A stretch of 64,000 nt of DNA from Dirofilaria immitis. Lineage: Eukaryota > Nematoda > Chromadorea > Rhabditida > Onchocercidae. Under the pieces are notes generated by a model that was not told the DNA's origin, did no database searches, and saw only the letters and a list, made by a program, of their open reading frames with translations. The stretch lies in NCBI GenBank assembly GCA_024305405.1, contig JAKNDB010000068.1, positions 2,473,501-2,537,500 on the forward strand, in the 5' to 3' direction. Both the position numbers and the translations under genes were made by a program. This document shows positions 12,601 to 54,520 of this stretch, piece after piece; positions within the stretch are counted from its first letter, which is position 1; each line of letters opens with the position of its first letter.

Positions 12601-15399
12601 TTCGAAAGACGGCAAATCGTACCGTAATCATCCTATATCCACGCCATATTGTATTTATTTTACGCCCATGTAATACTGTATTCACCTTATTTCTATGCCA
12701 AAAAAGAAAGCACTCATCTTAGGCCCATATTCTATATTCATTTTATGTGTATGTTATACCATACTCACCTCACACTTATATCATACTGTATTCATCTAAT
12801 ATCCGTACTGTTACCACACAGTATTCACCTTATGCTCATACCACTATGAGAAAATTTAACTGCAACAGACAACCGTTTTTTTGGCAAACTTATCTATTCT
12901 TTTAAAATTATTCCAACATTTATTTCCTTCTCTATTTTCCCGGAGAAAAATCCTTCGCGCATTTCATTTTCCCTAATCTATCGTACTTATCCAACACAAA
13001 CTAAGAAACGACAACATTAGTATTATTGATTATTACTATTAATTATTATTATTACTAATTGTTATTATTATTATTATTGTTATTGTTATTATTGTTATTA
13101 TTATTATTACTGCTAATTATTATTACTACCAATTGGTTTTATTAATATCAATATTATTGTCATTATTGATATCATTATTATTGTTATTATTATTATTAAT
13201 AATATTATTATTGTTAGTTTAATAATCATTATTCACTCATTTTCCGTATTTTTAACTTAACTTTTACTTTTGCTAATATTTTTGTTCCTAATCTTTCTAA
13301 TACCAAACTTTTGACTTTTAACAAAAAGCCTTAATTTGAATTAGTCAATACAATCATTTCAAGATATGCTAATTAAATTCATCCTAATTAAATCGTCATA
13401 TTAACATATTTTTCTTATGTAATGTCAAAATAAATGTTTAATGCAAGAAATTCTTCTATCCAATGTTTTAGTAATGACATCGAATTTTTAGGGAAATATA
13501 ATGCCAAATAATTAGCTTACCTGCGAAGTAGTTTCTTTTAAAAGTATAATTTGAATTTCGAGACTTTTTCGTCGATTCTCATATCTTTGTCCTGAATTAT
13601 TTGATTTCATTTTCTCATTTTTTTGCCTATCATAATTTGATTTGTTTCATTTGAAAAAATTGATTGTAGTAAATTTTTATCATTATCATTGATATTATCA
13701 ATTGCTAAATTTAAATTGTTTTGTTCTGATTCAATTTAATAATCTTTCTTTCAGCATTACTTAGTTGAACATCACTACTGCTCTGTTGATTAATTATTCC
13801 CGAATAATTTAGATTTCCCATTCCTTCTGTTTTTCCAAATGGCTTTATCATCATATTCATTGAATGGTTAACATTGTTATCAGAACGAAGCATAACATCA
13901 TCATTTGTGTTATCATTGAGATTAACCATCAATCTTGATATAAATTTAATTATTGATTTAACATTAATAATTATTATCAAATAAGCTTATATTAAAATAA
14001 GCTAAATTATTTCTATGACACAATTATTTTTTAAAATGAAAAGTTAAAACCTTGAATTCTAAAAATAATTTTATTTATTATAATTGATTATAATACAATT
14101 AGGCTGTTTATTTTAATTGAAATTAATACTTAATTTTAAATTAATTTACGGAGCTTTAGTGAGTTAAAGTATAAATTTATTCAAATATATAAAATTAATC
14201 AATTACAATTAGATAAAGCAAATGTAATTATTTCAAATAAATTTAAGTAAACTTTTTTTTCAAACGATTTTTTTATTTGATTTTAATTGAACATTTTTTA
14301 TTAAATAATTTCCTTCGTTTTTTTCCATTTATAATATTTTTAATTTTAACATAAATATATATCGCAAAACTTGAAATATTATAATTTTTTCTAAAAAAAA
14401 AATATTCAAATACTTTTTAATAGATATTTTTAATTCGATAGCTTCATTCATCCAATACCATTTATTTTTCTCATCAATAACATATATAATTCCAGTAAAT
14501 GAATTATTCATTATTTGATTACCTATATATACATACATATATTCGTATTCCGTAAAATTAATTTCATTTTTGTTTTTGTTTTTTCCCAGTCAGTAAATTT
14601 GCAAATAATCTATTTATAGGACAGAATAATAATTCAAATAGATTTTTTTAATAAAAATAATCATACTAAAATTTAATACTAATATTAATTTTAGAAATTT
14701 CAAAATCGATTATTTAGCTTTGAAATTTTGGGAAAAAAATTGTGCAAAAAGGTTTTAGAATTTAATTAAAATTTGAAAAATTTCAAAACAATAAAGCAAT
14801 ATTTGCAAAAAGATATTTAGGAATAGAAAATAAATAAATAAATTAAAATTGGCAATATATTTTATTAGCAAATATTTTGAATTAATTTTCATTATATTTT
14901 AATATTAAATAATTGCATTAATCCAAATTAACAATACTTTAGTTATTAAATTCCAATTTTTAATACAAAGTTAAAAAATAAAAAAAAAAGTTTAATAAAC
15001 CTAATTGAATGATAACTTGCGCATTTGTTAAATATTTTCGAAATGCATCAAGCGACACTGAACCTGCTACACTATGTTTAAATTCCATTTGTATCGGAAA
15101 TGCTTGTGCTATAAAAAAAATAAATAAATAAATAATTTTTCTTTTTAATTCAAATTTTCATTATTTAATGATAATCACTGATAATCATAAGCATAGAGAT
15201 TAATCGTATATTTTGAATTGTGATATTTCGATAAAAATTAAATTGTAAATTTGAAATAAGAATCGATAGACGAAAATACACCGATCATATTTTTAAATTA
15301 ATATCCTAAGAGACATGATATTTTTAAATTATTAGTCTAAGGGAGATGATATCTTTAAATTAGTATCCTAAGAGAGATGATATTTTTAAATTATTATCC

Positions 15400-15442
<43 letters not shown>

Positions 15443-16014
15443 CAAATTAATTATACGATAAATAGCATTAATTAGTTAATATTAAACAAACCAGGTATAT
15501 GAGTTAAATTTTCCGGTATGCAATGAATTAGTTGCTTTGTTACAACATCCGTAAAACCAAAATCGACAAATCGTACCTTAAAAATAATAAAATATTTTTA
15601 CTTATAATTAAAGTATTTGAACAAAATGCTTAATTAATATTATCTTATATCACTTACATTTCTCTATCTGATACACTAAAATAATTTAATGAAATCATTG
15701 TTAAAAAAAAAGATTAGCAAAGAAATTAATAAGAAAAATGAATAACAATTTAATGAGAGACAAAAGATAGTTAAACGAATTGATATCAGAATTAATCAAA
15801 TTTTTAACGAATCTGAATCCTAAATTATCTTCTGACGAATCTGAAGGCTAATAATATAAATTTGGAAATTAATGTGCAATTTCTGATATTATTCACAATT
15901 TTTAGTAATTAAACATATTAGCTAAGGTATAAAATTTATTTCATTAATTTTTTTAATAAATAGTTAAATGATCGGAATAAAATTTAGGCAAACAAAACTA
16001 TCAATCAATCAATT

Positions 16015-16055
<41 letters not shown>

Positions 16056-18576
16056 GTCATTTATATTCGATGTAAAATTATGATAGTTGCAAAGATGAAA
16101 TATATTTAATTAATTTAAATGTTATATTTTAATTATCAATTATTATAAAATCAAATTTTCTCGATAAATATATTTAAATGAATAATAGAAGAAAATGAAA
16201 AATCCCGTTGAAAAATCAATACTTATAAATTATCTATTTAATATAAAAATAAAAGAATGTAATAAATTTTGTCAAATTTTAGGATTATCTCGAGAAAATG
16301 TCAAGAAATGAAAAGGTTTAAAACCAACATTTTTCTCGCCTTATATATTTTTGCTATCATTAACTTACAAGTATTAATGTTGGATCGATACGTTTGATAA
16401 TAAGTATACGGTAGTATTCATTTTGCAAGCCATATTTCATGATTCCGGCTGATCCTATAAAATTCTCTACATGATATTATTTTGTATCATTTTTTTCACA
16501 TTTATTATCAATTGATGTTTTATCTTTTATCATAACATTACTATTAGATGAAAATTATTTATCATTAAAAATTGATTGATCTGAAGAATTATTCAAATAA
16601 AAAATTATATAAGTTATGAAATTTAATATAATATTTATTTTGCTACCATTCGTTCATCTTCTAGGATTATTATCTCATTATCAATGATAAATTGTTGCAT
16701 AATTTTAAATTAGAATTAGATAACCTGAGATAGGATTTGATAATGATTTAGCATACTGATATATCTGTTGTAACTGTTTCTGCAATTTCGACATTAGAAG
16801 ATAAGCATTTGGCAGTTGTAGATGAACTGTAGTCCAAGCTGTAAACAATGAATTAATTAACAAATATGAGCAAATTGTTACAGTATACATGAAGAATAGT
16901 TACAGTACACCTAAAGAATAGTTACAGTACATATGAAGAATGGAATTAAATTATTGTAAATTTTTAATGAATAATTAATTATGAATGAAATAATTTACAT
17001 TCAACATATGTAACAACAGCATCCATATAATCATGAATAGCAGCTGGTAAGATTAATTTAGCGTATTGCCCTTGCATAATTTCACTTTCACTTGTACCTG
17101 GTAATCCTGAAATTATAAATCTACTCATATCTGGTAACCCTGAAATTATGAGTCTACTCGTATCTGGTAATCCTGAAATTGTAAATCTACTCGTATCTGG
17201 TAATCCTGAAACTATGAATCTACTCATATGTGGCAATCCTGAAATTACGAATAATTGAAAAAGAAATAAGAAAAAGAAAATTCCACAAAATATCATACTT
17301 TCCTACTGATATCATGATAATTTATGTGTTATTTATTTATTTGTTTTATCTATTATTATATCAGTGGAATTATCATATTATCGTAGGAAATGTCAATTTT
17401 TCAAAAATAAACCTTTCAAAAAAAAATAAAATAACGAATTCCGAGCAATAGATAATAAGCTATTAGGAATTTTACTCTCGAAGAAATCTTATATTCCTCT
17501 TTCCATCATTTTCTCGAAGAAAATTTGCTTATTTATATCTTATTTATTTTGAAATTGATAATGAGATCAGAAATAATTTTAACTATTTTATAATTATTAT
17601 CTATCCACAATAGATATATGACTAATCTAATTATCATTAGAATTGATTAGAAATTCATTTTACAAAAATATATTTCTTACCTAATTTTAATTGATAAAAA
17701 TTATGTTGCTCCATCATATATACGGCTAATTTGTATTGTTTTAGATATGATAAAATTTTATCTAAACTGTAATGGAAAATTTGAATTATTGAAATTTTGA
17801 TAAAATTTCAATGATAACATTTTTAATTGAAAATTTTTAATCAATATAATGATTAAATTTTTAATTATTTACTTTTATTTTATTCTTTCTCATTTCCTTT
17901 TTAATTTCTTCATTCTTATTTCTATTAATTAATTAATTGATTTATTAATTTCTATTAATTGATCGTTTTATTCAACTCTTTTCTTCACTGATCATAATTA
18001 TATTCCCAATATATATATCCTAGTTGATATCGAAAATTTAAAAATTTCAATTTATTTATTTTCTATATATTTACTAATGTGACAATCAATTTCTCTGAAT
18101 TTTCGACTAAAATTCAAAAATAAAATTATCAAAGGTAAATAATTCAATAGAATTCTTTTTATACGCTATATAGATTTAATCTAATTTATGATAAACGATA
18201 TACATAATTACTAAAATACGATTTCCATTTTTTATTTAACATTTTTTCATATATCAACAAAGAATTTATGAAGATCGAATGCACGAATCAGTAAACCAAC
18301 CGAACACTTTTTCTTGTTCTCTTTAAACTGATCTTTATTATTCATTTATTTAAACTTTTCCAATTTAAATATTTCATCAGGTAAATATGCAAAATTTCCC
18401 AAAGTATTTAGTTCTAATTTGAATTTCTCGAAATTAAAAGAGCTATTTTGTTGCTCGAGAGTTTTTAAACTTCGAATATGGAGAATAAAAATAAAAAATA
18501 AAGAAATTTCTAAATTTAGATCCTTTCACGATAATAAAATGGCATAGCGATTTTCACATCGATCCTTTTTCGCCAT
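6659..18576 (-). CDS. Extended-Tudor-domain protein with long disordered tail (several frame breaks)
   Basis: Exons read downward: 18576-18530 (start exon, less sure), 17766-17681, 17238-16999, 16838-16725, 16454-16369, 15576-15492, 15108-15001, 14522-14414, 13933-13521, 12375-12210, 10411-10188, 9687-9365, 9096-8960, 8561-8283, 7872-7789, 7475-6659. Tudor domains bind methylated Arg/Lys tails, usually of germ-granule or small-RNA proteins. The core is seen in exons 5-6: YYRILIIKRIDPTLILVRFVDFG, continuing FTDVV, then CIPENLTHIPAQAFPIQMEF, the strand and exit helix of an extended Tudor fold. WTTVHLQLPNAY before it and FTGIIYVIDE after it fit the SN-like flanks. The remaining ~700 residues are Ser/Asn/Lys/Asp-rich, including 12 Asp in a row. 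Frame is lost at least five times in the tail, and the exon 9 to exon 10 phase is unresolved. Tudor assignment is firm; the tail model and start are moderate. Confidence 0.75.
9459..9495 (-). repeat. GAT/GAC trinucleotide run encoding poly-Asp
   Basis: Imperfect (ATC/GTC)n on the plus strand, which reads as twelve consecutive Asp codons in exon 12 of the Tudor-protein gene. It is part of an acidic Ser/Asp patch. Such runs are common in disordered tails and are length-variable. Confidence 0.8.
12640..12850. repeat. Degenerate 25-30 bp minisatellite in Tudor-gene intron
   Basis: Loose repeats of the form CATATTCTATATTCACCTTATG/CTCATACC. They explain the open reading frame on the plus strand here, which I do not regard as a gene. 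Confidence 0.5.
13020..13220. repeat. ATT/TTA trinucleotide-rich tract
   Basis: About 200 bases of interrupted ATT/TTG triplets (TTATTATTATT, TTGTTATTATTG) inside the intron between exons 9 and 10 of the Tudor gene. Simple-sequence expansion, no coding value. Confidence 0.75.
15290..15436. repeat. 33-bp imperfect repeat followed by (GA)n
   Basis: Four imperfect copies of a unit containing CCTAAGAGAGATGATATTTTT end in a (GA)n run of about 32 bases (15404-15435). The whole lies in the intron between Tudor-core exons 6 and 7. Confidence 0.75.
15998..16056. repeat. (CAAT)n microsatellite
   Basis: Roughly 14 copies of the tetranucleotide CAAT with a few interruptions, in the intron between exons 5 and 6 of the Tudor gene. 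Confidence 0.85.
17100..17245 (-). repeat. 33-bp tandem array carrying five 3' splice sites (Tudor exon 3)
   Basis: On the minus strand the unit ATTTCAG/GATTACCAGA... recurs every 33 bases, with the potential first exon base at 17238, 17205, 17172, 17139 and 17106. Only the first copy has a long pyrimidine stretch before it. Translated from the first site the array reads as 11-residue repeats of the form SGLPDTSRFII, with no stop. Any of the five sites joins exon 2 in the same phase (G/GA), so products would differ by whole 11-residue units. Confidence 0.85.
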
Positions 18577-18972: not shown

Positions 18973-21900
18973 TTAATTGAAATCAAATTCAGTACATGTA
19001 TCATCATTTTGATGTATTATCGGTAATAGCAATACAATTTTTGGATCACCAGATGGTTCAAGTTTTCGTATTTCTTCGATTGGTTTCAATAAACGTATAA
19101 TTTTATCATCATCTTGCCTTTGATATAACATTTCACCTTCAAAATCTACCAATTTGTATTTTCGAGCTCGAATTAACATTCCAACCAACTGTAACTATGA
19201 AATAAAGTTTATGATATTTTGTTGAAATTTCTAAATTTTATTTGCTTTTCCGGCAAATTGTTCAGATTGCGAATTATTTAATTATAGATTTTATGTTGAT
19301 CGTTTCTTTGCATTGCTCTTTTTTTTCCTTCAGCTTATCTTCTTCAGATATTCTTTAGTCTTTTCGAAACTTCTCTTTTTTTCCCTTTAATTTTTTTGCT
19401 TTTTTCTTCGAAGTTTCTTTTCTCGATTCGTTTAAAATCCTTTTCTCGATCTATTTCCGACTAAATTCCTATGAAATGGTTTTTGAAAAAAAAAAAAAGA
19501 ATGAGATGATTAATTTATATTTTTCAACAAGAATTTCTATGATTGCACTAAACATTACAAATTTCATTAACAGTATGAATTATATTTAAAAGTATGCTAT
19601 TCGCTTAAAATTACTAACTTAATGATTCATTATAGCTTATACAGTACAAAGTTTAAATTTGAAAAAAAAATTGATATTTTTCAAATTTACAATACATTTC
19701 AATTATTTAAATTCCATTTATGTATTATCAGTAATATTTATCATTTGAATATTTAATCATTTTTGGAATTGTCTTTTTTTTTGGAATTTCAATTTTAATT
19801 ATTTCATTTAAATTTATCAATACTTACTTTATCAGAATAATGCGCATAGATATAGAATAATGGGCCAAATTTAATGATTCTATTTGGTGGTTCACCTTCT
19901 GCATGTGTATTGATTATTTCACATAAAAATAATACTTCACGCATTATATAATCACCTGAAAAAAATTTTTCTTTTTTTTTTTTTTAAGCCATTTCAAATA
20001 TACATGTTCAATATATTAGGATATTTAAATGCTAGAAATAGTAATAAAATAAAGATTATAAAGATTATAGCATTAGTTATTAAATATCATATTTAAAGAA
20101 AAATTAAATATTCCGATTCCCTTTTTTTTTCGTCTACCTAAAATAAAAAATATGATATATGATAAGGAGAAATTTAAAAAATGATCAATAAATGCATACC
20201 TGCTTTAATACCACGTGCTTCTATTTTAGATCCTATGATATATAATAAGAAGAAATTTAAAAAATGATCAATAAATACATACCTGCTTTAATACCACGTG
20301 CTTCGGTTTTAGATCCATGCGTTGGTCGACCATAATCTTTAGCATTTGTATCATATTTAGGTATCATATATGTTGATGAAAATGGATTCCTAAAATTTAC
20401 AATCAAAAGATTATTCCAAAAAAAAAAAAAAAACGAAATTAAGAAAACAATCGATAAAGTAAAAAGTAAACATAAAATATTTTCGCATCGGTTAATTTTA
20501 GAAAAATAAAATTTAAACATATAATTTTAAATTAATATAATAATTAGCGAAAGAAAAAATAAACATAAACATATGTGATATGTAAATAAAAAAAAAAAGA
20601 AGAAAAGAAATCTTCAAATTTTGAAAATAAAAAAAAAAATAAATAAATTTAAAAAGATACTTGTCAAGTTTTTCCTTAGTTTCATTAGCAATATTATTGA
20701 ACATTTTAATTGTATCACGTGCGCTTTTACCCATCATACGTAAACTTGATTGACGCCTGCTTTCGTTGCTATATAATCTTTGTTGTTTTAAGCTTATATA
20801 TATATAAATATTTTTTTTTGATTTTGATTTGTTTACTTTCAAATATTAGTTCAAATATAAGCTTAAATATTAGGTTAAATTTATATGAATTTTGATAAAT
20901 ATTTGAAATTTAAAAAAACGAAAGTTTGATATGATTGAATGAAAGAAATATTTCGTAAAATTATTTTCACATGCATTCAATCATATTTTTTGATATCTTT
21001 AATCAATCAATTGTTAATTTTTGATATCTTTAATCAATCAATTGTTAATTTTGATATCTTTAATCGATCAATCATTATCAAATGATAGATGGATTAACAA
21101 AATTATTTTAGTCTTTAAAAATTACCTCTGAGAAATTTTTCGATTTCCATTAATTTCTCCACTATTATCCTCTTCATTAGTAATATCATGTTGTAATGAT
21201 GCAGATTTATTGCACAAACTATATGCATTAATATGATATTAAATAAATTATAAAAGGAAAATAATTTTTGAAAATTAAAATTTAAAAAAAATTTTAAATT
21301 CAATAAAACTAATCTATAAGTTCATTTTTATTTATTGATAACAATATATATATCAAAAGCTATTTTCTATAAACCTACCAAATAAAAAAAAAAAGAATTT
21401 AAATCTCGAATCTCGACGAATACCTTGTTTTACGTTTATCGCAATTATCAATTACCGATGATGCATTATTACTATCATCTTTATTACGGAAGAAATTAAT
21501 AGCACTGCGTGCGGTTTCACGTCTTCCAACACTTCGTAATTCCCAATTTCGAGTAATACTTGGCCTATATTGATGAAATTAAATTTGTATAAATGAAATT
21601 TAATTAAAGATCGTTATAGTATTAACAATGATTGATTTCATATTATTTAATCATTTAATCGAATCATTTTTTATAATTTATATGTTTTGACTTTTTCTTC
21701 GATCTCAATTTATCTCAATTCTTGAATCTCATTTATATAAGATTCAGCTAATAAAGGATACAAATTTTCTTATCATAAGAAAAATGATTCTTTCACATCC
21801 ATTCCAATACTTTATGTATTAAATGAAATTAGCTAAAATTTTTTTTGAAATTCCTAACTTATAATAAGCTATTTGTATTAATGTTTCTTTTTGCTTTTTC

Positions 21901-24900
21901 ATATTTAATAATTCAAATTCATTTCCAATTAATTCAATTCATTTATCTTTTCAATTATAATTAATTTTATGATTTTGCATAGTATTATAGTTTGAATGTT
22001 TTTATAAATTGCTATGAGTAAAAAGATTAATAAATTTTTGTTCATTTTATCAAATAATTTTTAATATAAAAATTAATTAACAAAAATTTATATTATCCCT
22101 TATTTTTTCCATACCACTTATTAACGAATGATTTTGCATTTGATCTTTTTTTTCTCTAAAAAATATTCATCGATCAAATATATCATCAGTTCATTGATCA
22201 AATATATCATCAGTTCATTGATCAAATATATCATCAGTTCATTGATCAAATATATCATCATTCATTCTATATTCATTCAAAAACATTCCATATTAATCCA
22301 AATATTAGAAGGAGAAAAATTTTTGAAATTTGAAGTGAATAAATTTTAGCATTTTCCATTTTTTCTCTAACAGCCAAAATAATATGAAATGAAATTGTAA
22401 AGAATATATTAATCGAAATTTGAAATTATATTTCGTTTGAAAATATTCAATATATTAAGTATGTTTTAATTAATTTCCGATTATTTTGAGTATTTTAGTA
22501 GAATAAAATGATTAAGAAATATTTTAGCATAGCTTATCATTTACAATAAGTTAAATTTCGAAATAATTCTCGACAATTATCAAAAGAAAAAGTAATAATT
22601 ATTTAATAAACAAAATGTTAGAGAGCATAACTTAATTTCCTATAAATTATAATACTCTGGACATTCATATTTGCTTTGTTATTTTTAAGATGAATTATTG
22701 ATATGCTACGATAGCATGCAATCATATCAATATAGAATATAAGAGGCGAAGAGATAATTTCAAACTTTTCCTTTTTTTCTTCCTCATCACGATTTCTCCC
22801 AATATTTCTCTCAGAATGATAACAAGAGTATAAAAAAAAAAAAGTATTTGAAAATAGTGTTAATTTTTTGATAGTAGTATGCGAAAGAAGTATAAGACAT
22901 ATCTTATCAGAAGAAGTTTTAAAAGATAATTTAAACATTTTAACTTTAGTTCGACGAAGAAATGAATCTCAAGAATTCTGCAATTATGAATTTTTTGATA
23001 TATACGACAAAAATTGTTGTTTACGAATTAATTCCCGTAGAATTCTTAAAAATAAATGAAAAATAGATGAAACTGATAAACATCCATTGATATTTTATTG
23101 TGTACAAATATTAAATGTGTAAAAGTTTCATTTTTTCTTTTTTAAATTTCAAAATTTTAGAAGAAAAAAATTTATATTAATTGAGATAAAATGAATAGCT
23201 TATAATTTATTAATGATTACTTATCATTTCATATTTATTTATTTTTAAGAATTAATTTGAAATGTATTATTGAATTTGTAAATTATCATCTACTAATATC
23301 ATCATTTATTCAGTGATAATGATGATACTTTACTTGGTACTAATTTATTGTATAATGCAAATCATTGGTTTTAATAAAACGAAATATTTCGAAAATTATC
23401 ATGAGTAGAAGTAAATTTATAAAAGCTTTGAAAAAAATGACAATGAAGAAAATGAAATCAGTTAAAAAATTGGAATGATAAGAAAATGAAAGTTAAAGGT
23501 CAATTAAAGTGACCTTTGAAAATCTAATTAATAAATTTAATAAAAAATATAAATAAATAAATAAACAGTTCGAGCACAAATACTTCGTTTAAGATATCAC
23601 TAGAAATATCAATTTTCTACAAAAAGAAACAAAACGAATGATCGTTATTAAAATATTAATAATTATATCATTTCAAGAATGATATTAATATGAAAGATAA
23701 ATTAGAAATATTCCAGGAATTCTCATAAATTTAATATAACATTTTAATAGCTGAAAATAATGATTAATATAAATTATCTCCAAATGATATGATATTGATC
23801 TGGAAAAAGAAAAATAATCACAAATGATAAACAATATATGAGTAATTTTGAGAACTATTTCGTTTTCTTTCTTTTTGCACTTTAAATTACATTCTTTTTC
23901 TCTCTCGAAATATGTTATTTAGATTGATAGCAAATAGTTGATCAGTACGGCTACAATTCTATTAATTTTTGTTATCATCAATTTCTTATCTATTATTATC
24001 ATGATAATTTTGATTTATTTCATTATCGCTCTAATTCGCTATTATTTGCTTATCAACAACAAATATAGTTAGTCATCAATTTGCTATCATTTGTTATCAT
24101 GATCCATATTGATAAGATGTACATGAAATAATTTGTTATCAAAATAATTTGTTTTATTATCTCACAAACGCTCGAATTATTTTTCATATTTTACAAAACA
24201 ACGATTTCTATTACAATATGCTAGAAAAATATGACGAAATAAAAGAATCAACGAAAAGAAATTTATTTTTTTTTGTTCAAAACAATTTTTCCCATTTCTT
24301 ACGATCGAGCAAAGCAAAGCAATCATTCATTTAAAAGAAATTGAAAGAAAAAATATTTGAAGAAAAATTTAAATTTGAAATATTTCATTTTCTTGCATTT
24401 TTTTGCTGATAAAATATTCCTTTTTTTTTTTATCATTTCAATCAGTTTAATTTAATGCAAAAAGAAAAATTTATTCACTGATATTTAAGCTTTTAATTGA
24501 AATATTTCTTATCAGCTGATGAATATCAATTTATTAAAGTAAAAATTAAATTAGAAATGTATGATGTTTAAGGGAAAAATTTGATCATGATAATGATTAA
24601 TATCATCAAACAATCTTGTTTTATATTTTTTTTTCCTATCCATCAAATATTTTACTATCCTATAAAATGATATAAAATTTTAAGACTATAGATAACTGAT
24701 ATAAAAACCATGATAAAATCAATGTTTATTCGTTTTAGAATAAGATAAAAGTAATAATATGTATGATATGCAACGAATAGAGAAAATGAAAAATCCAGAA
24801 TCAATTTTATAATCATGCTCTTTTTTCTTCATTTTTAACGATTTGAAAATTGATGAATATTTTATGCAAGCTATAATAATTCTTCAATCATATCATTAAT

Positions 24901-25346
24901 CAATTCTTCCGTAACAGGAGATGATGATAAATTGATTAAAACTTAAAATTTAATCAATTGATACAGATAATCATTTTATCGTGATTTTTAACTATCTTCA
25001 ATAATATCATTAATCAATGCTTCCGTAACAGGAGATGATGATAAATTGATTAAAACTTAAAATTTAATCAATTGATACAGATAATCATTTCATCATGATT
25101 TTGTTAATTCTACCCAAGAATCTAACAAATATATTTTATGATAATTTAAATAAACAAAAATAATGCCCAAAATTAAATAATATGGTGAAATTAATATAGC
25201 TACAAAAGAAATTATACGGTAGAATTAGTTAGTTATCAAACTTACCGGCCTAATTTCTGATCCATTTCATTGGTAGGGGTAATTTTATCAAATTTGTTAT
25301 TATCATCAATTGGCTCGATAGCATATGTTTGTTGCGCCAACTTCAT
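18973..25346 (-). CDS. STARS/ABRA-like actin-binding Rho-activating protein with costars domain
   Basis: Exons 25346-25246, 21564-21424, 21218-21126, 20768-20661, 20389-20283, 19955-19828 and 19194-18973 join in perfect phase to 299 aa with no frame break. Known STARS/ABRA proteins bind actin filaments and raise Rho/MRTF-SRF signalling in muscle; human ABRA is 381 aa. Visible: an Arg-rich, Ser-rich N-terminal half (RRQSSLRMMGKSARDTIKMF) for actin contact, then the family hallmark NPFSSTY...DYGRPTHGSKTEARG, then the C-terminal costars fold with IIKFGPLFYIYAHYSDK and MLIRARKYKLVDFEGEMLYQ, continuing RQDDDKIIRLL. The start is the first in-frame ATG of an exon with a good GTAAG donor. Exon 1 is separated by a 3.7-kb intron. 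An 83-bp duplication copies the exon 5 donor (separate entry). Family call is strong; orthology to ABRA itself is likely but not proven. Confidence 0.9.
20152..20317 (-). repeat. 83-bp tandem duplication copying an exon end and its 5' splice site
   Basis: Two near-identical 83-bp units, 20152-20234 and 20235-20317. The upper unit holds the true end of exon 5 (SKTEARGIKAG, donor GTATG at 20282). The lower unit repeats these bases (20200-20232, reading SKIEARGIKA) with its own GTATG donor, but now inside the intron. Read-through from the true exon meets a stop within nine codons, so the second donor can act only as a decoy or as part of a cryptic exon. Confidence 0.85.
22172..22266. repeat. 24-bp tandem repeat, four copies
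   Basis: Unit GATCAAATATATCATCAGTT plus CATT at 22172, 22196, 22220 and 22244; the fourth copy lacks one base. Inside intron 1 of the STARS-like gene. Confidence 0.85.
24881..25108. repeat. 114-bp direct repeat with internal hairpin, two copies
   Basis: Two copies starting at 24881 and 24995, about 95% alike by eye. Each carries the 11-base inverted repeat AATTGATTAAA/TTTAATCAATT separated by a short spacer. Lies in intron 1 of the STARS-like gene, 140 bases from exon 1. Confidence 0.8.

Positions 25347-38469: not shown

Positions 38470-54520
<16,051 letters not shown>

Follow-up and report, generated by a model that had tools for sequence, protein, structure and literature searches.

A predicted Tudor-domain gene of the heartworm Dirofilaria immitis raises the question of which 3' splice site a donor is joined to when the end of its intron has been copied several times, in tandem and in frame. 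The gene lies in the window, the whole 64,000-nucleotide stretch of genomic DNA that was analyzed, and its predicted intron 2/exon 3 boundary is crossed by a minus-strand tandem array with a period of 33 bp (17098-17247; 4.5 copies, 87% matches, 0% indels, and a score of 230 in Tandem Repeats Finder). As a repeat, the array is far beyond chance, and a search of the 86.7-Mb assembly using positions 17090-17260 as the query returned its own locus as the sole match. The TTTCAG motif ends at positions 17239, 17206, 17173, 17140, and 17107 of the minus strand. The original prediction had placed five tandem in-frame acceptors in a Tudor gene; the array, the frame, and the PF00567 domain were all recovered in our analysis, and the exon starts that it listed (17238, 17205, 17172, 17139, and 17106) are the same as the recomputed positions (Table 1).

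Each repeat unit holds both an intron end and an exon start; the boundary between the two is predicted, with its exon side backed by the proteins of related worms. The unit had been described as containing ATTTCAG as the intron end and GATTACCAGA as the exon start. Both elements are present, but ATTTCAG is found at only four of the five acceptors (GTTTCAG stands at 17206) and GATTACCAGA is exact in only two of the five copies, the remaining three exon starts being GATTGCCACA, GGTTACCAGA, and GATTACCAGG. In pairwise comparisons, the four full units are identical at 27 to 30 of 33 bases, with 8 variable columns, which agrees with the earlier statement that the units differ at several bases. Because the four units differ in this way, a misassembly artefact is unlikely.

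Table 1. Predicted features of the Tudor-domain gene around the acceptor array (positions are those of the window)
Feature	Position	Strand	Basis or remark
Putative exon 2 (...FYQLKL/G), AG/GTAAGA donor, phase 1	17681..17766	-	Open frame, splice consensus
Intron 2 to first acceptor, 442 nt (574 nt with fifth acceptor)	17239..17680	-	
Acceptor 1, ATTTCAG/G	17238..17245	-	Motif and score; sole site of the five preceded by a pyrimidine-rich stretch
Unit 1, would encode GLPHMSRFIVS	17206..17238	-	Translation
Acceptor 2, GTTTCAG/G (G at -7)	17205..17212	-	Motif and score
Unit 2, would encode GLPDTSRFTIS	17173..17205	-	Translation
Acceptor 3, ATTTCAG/G	17172..17179	-	Motif and score
Unit 3, would encode GLPDTSRLIIS	17140..17172	-	Translation
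Acceptor 4, ATTTCAG/G	17139..17146	-	Motif and score
Unit 4, would encode GLPDMSRFIIS	17107..17139	-	Translation
Acceptor 5, ATTTCAG/G	17106..17113	-	Motif and score; yields the join found in the O. flexuosa protein
Exon 3 proper (GLPGTSESEIMQGQYAKL...), opening 17-19 nt form the fifth, partial unit	16999..17106	-	Alignment with proteins of O. flexuosa, W. bancrofti, and Loa
Exon 4, Tudor domain	16725..16838	-	Domain match and relatives' proteins
Exon 5, Tudor domain	16369..16454	-	Domain match and relatives' proteins
Exon 6, Tudor domain	15492..15576	-	Domain match and relatives' proteins
Exon 7	15001..15108	-	Relatives' proteins
Exon 8 (GNQIMNNSFTG...)	14414..14522	-	Start by reading and homology; end is a guess

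When exons 2 to 8 are joined, the predicted protein matches the Tudor domain (PF00567) at residues 54-167 with 54.4 bits against a cut-off of 23 (E=1.6e-14); solved structures under the name 'Maternal protein tudor' were matched weakly as well (best E=1.6e-5). Homologous proteins were found in three relatives, Onchocerca flexuosa (77% identity), Wuchereria bancrofti (69%), and Loa loa (72%). The alignments of all three begin at the (L)PGT(S/A)KSE stretch; exon 2 aligned with none of them. The partial O. flexuosa protein is the only one to read across the fifth-site join (VHDL-GLPGTSKSE); in the Loa model, PGTAKSE is preceded by NSGSS, and LPGTAKSE is where the W. bancrofti model starts. The repeat is absent from all three of these protein models, which reflect the join picked by the annotator and not the DNA. 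For the Tudor protein of Dirofilaria itself, no entry was found in protein searches covering lengths of ~149-474 and 272-866 residues, the second of which scored the 7995 candidates sharing the most words. Further downstream, in a poorly conserved part of the gene (13500-13960, minus strand), about two frame changes were seen relative to the W. bancrofti protein; assembly indels, unrecognised introns, or decay may account for them.

The sequences flanking the array bear on the origin of the unit. The 14 intron bases that immediately precede the array agree with the unit ends at 11 to 12 of 14 positions, and the first 17 exon bases after it agree with the unit starts at 12 to 15 of 17; the flank further upstream agrees with the units at 4 to 5 of 19. 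Since matching flanks are found on both sides, the unit appears to consist of an intron end (~14 nt) and an exon start (~17 nt), with ~2 extra bases at the joint. We propose a tandem duplication of a segment that spanned the intron 2/exon 3 boundary, followed by growth to four extra copies, and the duplication probably dates to the line leading to this Dirofilaria. Under such a history, acceptor 1 would have kept the upstream surroundings from before the duplication and acceptor 5 the downstream ones, and neither alone would be the ancestral site. The earlier view that the join at the fifth site looks ancestral is supported by one relative, O. flexuosa, whose partial protein reads across it.

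Acceptor strength was gauged against a control set of 28 acceptors from chaperonin (PF00118) genes of the same genome, which were picked by frame, profile continuity, and donor, with the bases before the AG not used. A filtered set of 20 was obtained by dropping 8 sites (4 ambiguous, 3 with weak donors, and 1 with a poor fit), two of the dropped sites being TTTCAG sites. T occupies position -5 in 24 of the 28 controls, a nematode-type acceptor that each array copy fits. The five array sites outscore all 20 filtered controls and 27 of the 28 in the full set; when the five other acceptors of the Tudor gene are added, the array sites stand above 31 to 32 of 33. Their scores of 5.45-5.69 fall in the top 0.17-0.25% of the 4728 AGs in the window, while the remaining 35 of the 40 AGs in the intron and exon score <=0.11. 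Acceptor 2, at 5.47, is equal to the other array sites despite its G at -7. Pyrimidines make up 71% of positions -25 to -5 at site 1 and 43-48% at sites 2-5 (43% at acceptor 5). In the interval from -20 to -5, sites 2-5 have 44% pyrimidines, and 8 of the 28 controls lie at 44% or below, which argues that a pyrimidine-poor upstream stretch does not disable these sites. Judged by motif and score, the five predicted acceptors look competent.

This agrees with what has been described for Caenorhabditis elegans, in which UUUUCAG/R is bound by U2AF, a branch-point consensus is absent, and the U at -5 is the most conserved base apart from the AG (excerpt of PMC4889670). In a model proposed in the same excerpt, U2AF bound at the motif sets the branch point, after which any AG shortly downstream is usable. 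With the 33-nt spacing of the array, each acceptor has a U2AF-type motif of its own.

Depending on whether acceptor 1, 2, 3, 4, or 5 is joined, exon 3 would be 240, 207, 174, 141, or 108 nt long, and 4, 3, 2, 1, or 0 eleven-residue repeats would be added before GLPGTSESE, ~25 residues N-terminal of the Tudor domain. The predicted translations of all five joins bear out the expectation that 11-residue repeats would be inserted between exon 2 and the Tudor domain, and a single open frame runs from every join, as had been foreseen (no stop and the frame kept at each acceptor). The chance that a copied junction is both in frame and open is ~0.25 (control intron ends were open in 62 of 84 frames, multiplied by 1/3); with about one in four expected by chance, frame and openness do not prove that the acceptors are used. 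No clear selection was visible among the four full units and 8 variable columns compared. By reading, silent changes account for 3 of the 8 variable columns; a stop would result from 4.8% of single changes in the units and none did produce one, and the acceptor core TTTCAGG is unchanged across the copies (p=0.11). Mini-introns within the array were also considered and rejected. The GTs in the four full units, in the contexts TGAGTAGAT, CGAGTAGAT, CGAGTAGAC, ATAGTTTCA, and AGGGTTACC, are poor donors by reading, and just 18 nt separate the GAGTAGAT-type GT from the next acceptor.

We tentatively favor, at somewhat less than an even chance, a history in which the junction was duplicated in tandem and acceptor 1 is now used for the most part, with acceptors 3-5 minor and acceptor 2 weaker. 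Nematode acceptors would need little beyond UUUCAG/R and no branch-point consensus, and for this reason every copy would be a competent 3' splice site. The spliceosome would mainly pick acceptor 1, the sole copy with the original pyrimidine-rich intron end, such that most of the protein would carry four 11-residue repeats in the linker ahead of the Tudor domain, while acceptors 3-5 would yield a minority of shorter in-frame isoforms. We propose that acceptor 2 is weaker because of its G at -7; in C. elegans, a G at this position lowered the use of one site, in competition, to 15% (excerpt of PMC2762039). Two features speak for acceptor 1: the pyrimidines upstream of it and a G+C content of the array that resembles that of an exon (34%, compared to 34% in exon 3 and 21% in the intron). 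The composition argument is weak, as exon 2 itself has only 20% G+C.

The main rival to acceptor 1 is acceptor 5; a coding repeat entered constitutively from acceptor 1, or an intronic repeat that is skipped to acceptor 5, would explain the array equally well. An effectively intronic array, in which the fifth acceptor serves nearly all transcripts, the ancestral protein is made, and the copies are a neutral minisatellite, is in our assessment somewhat unlikely. Two C. elegans constructs carried identical acceptors, and in both the downstream copy took 97% (excerpt of PMC2762039), a result that favors an intronic array and speaks against acceptor 1; the consensus TTTTCAG, according to the same excerpt, wins in either position. 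The three relatives' models without the repeat and the units without visible selection also fit an intronic array. For such an array, however, acceptor 5, with its 43% upstream pyrimidines, must beat four sites of approximately equal score, and all units of the array are open in frame, though chance would give this about one time in four.

Use of all or most of the five acceptors at appreciable levels, as the original prediction had it, would produce a ladder of proteins with 0 to 4 repeats in which repeat number sets the isoform mix. This would account for the near-equal scores of the five sites and for joins that are all in frame, and weaker, non-TTTTcag acceptors, among which these five would fall, have been suggested to be the ones open to alternative choice (excerpt of PMC2762039). 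We nevertheless regard a full ladder as unlikely, given that a single member of each identical pair took 97% in both C. elegans constructs (excerpt of PMC2762039). Slightly more doubtful still is the broader idea of a coding minisatellite whose unit bears its own acceptor, so that copy number would tune competing acceptors and protein lengths together and create a heritable isoform ladder. It is very improbable that the five sites are spliced-leader trans-splice acceptors, with exon 2 outside the gene and the leader attached at one or several of these positions: exon 2 lacks support from the proteins of all three relatives, units 1 and 4 as well as exon 3 contain in-frame ATGs, and trans-splice acceptors are the same in appearance as cis acceptors, but exon 2 ends in an AG/GTAAGA donor in matching phase, and the partial O. 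flexuosa protein has residues ahead of the join (VHDL-GLPGT).

A second copied junction was found 3 kb from the array, in the neighboring COSTARS gene. An 83-bp tandem duplication (78/83 identical; 20151-20316, minus strand) copies 33 nt of exon end together with the donor and the intron start, giving a possible extra in-frame 33-nt exon. The extra copy is absent from all 11 aligned proteins (11 aligned of 140 found), that of D. immitis included, in which the first exon copy joins directly to the next exon. Comparison of the gene with this D. immitis protein gave eight pieces. Four of them are at 100% identity, and in the rest the mismatches are confined to the ends of the pieces, beyond the exons, which places the window in D. 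immitis or an extremely close relation. Because the copied COSTARS junction is left out of the D. immitis protein, a copied junction need not be used; junction-crossing duplications occur in this region and can apparently be spliced past. In all, tandem repeats cover 10.9% of the window in 67 arrays (merged Tandem Repeats Finder rows). Two of these were noted by eye on account of their minus strands: a 51-bp, 6.6-copy array at 53129-53463 looks open in one frame, with a possible 17-residue repeat, and a 114-bp, 1.9-copy duplication at 24881-25102 includes a coding-like stretch.

Clusters of such acceptor motifs are not rare across the genome. TTTCAG/R occurs 59,306 times, compared to 16,207 for the reversed pattern (3.7-fold); pairs number 984 versus 120 (8.2-fold) and triples 112 versus 16 (7-fold). 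By our reasoning, the excess of triples would be ~3.7-fold if they arose through copying of single sites and ~49-fold through chance clustering. As the excess found lies between these values, it provides no evidence of selection. By reading, ~100 of the 112 places represent at least 49 distinct triple loci, of which 29, comprising 30 clusters, were examined. Among these 30 clusters (Tudor array included), only the Tudor array combines a uniform tandem structure with a period that is a multiple of three, an open frame throughout, and at least 30 open codons after it, a threshold that was set post hoc. Three other loci (L076, L078, and L081) are long arrays with TTTCAG/A in each unit, having periods of ~24, 28, and 31 bp and 9, 13, and 13 sites, respectively.

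The RdRp gene of potato is a known case of tandem duplication over the 3' end of an intron (excerpt of PMC4974935), and the multi-copy in-frame acceptor array is a variant of this type of event. In both cases, a recent tandem duplication over the 3' boundary of an intron copied the acceptor and the exon start. Potato RdRp differs in having one extra copy, and the new intron spliced there took its donor from the upstream exon, with RNA reads in support (excerpt of PMC4974935), whereas the heartworm array has four short extra copies and no good donor. Given copies without a good donor, the outcome would be extra acceptors or a coding repeat in place of the new intron of potato. Adjacent alternative 3' sites in C. 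elegans (Ragle et al. 2015, via excerpts of PMC4889670 and PMC8055015) likewise offer several acceptors per donor in a nematode. Those paired sites are close together, and the upstream member is without a U2AF65 binding site (excerpt of PMC4889670); the array has five duplication-made sites spaced at 33 nt, every one with a motif of its own, and TTTCAG/G is present at all five, the upstream ones included. With TASS, the array shares a choice among neighboring splice sites, a candidate choice only in the array; TASS lie just a few nucleotides apart, whereas the spacing here is the 33-nt repeat period (excerpt of PMC8055015). The human ABCA7 VNTR is a further case of tandem repeat length tied to splicing, but it is intronic and correlates with exon skipping (excerpt of PMC5954066), whereas in the array the repeat itself bears the splice site. 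The mainly open-licence literature covered yielded no description of an acceptor repeat that is both multi-copy and in frame.

With five near-identical acceptors, one donor, equal spacing, and one frame, the locus amounts to a natural experiment on the choice made by the spliceosome: whether the first site, the last site, or context decides for a spliceosome without branch-point or long pyrimidine-tract signals. The array also illustrates how a protein repeat may be born from intron sequence through a single kind of mutation.
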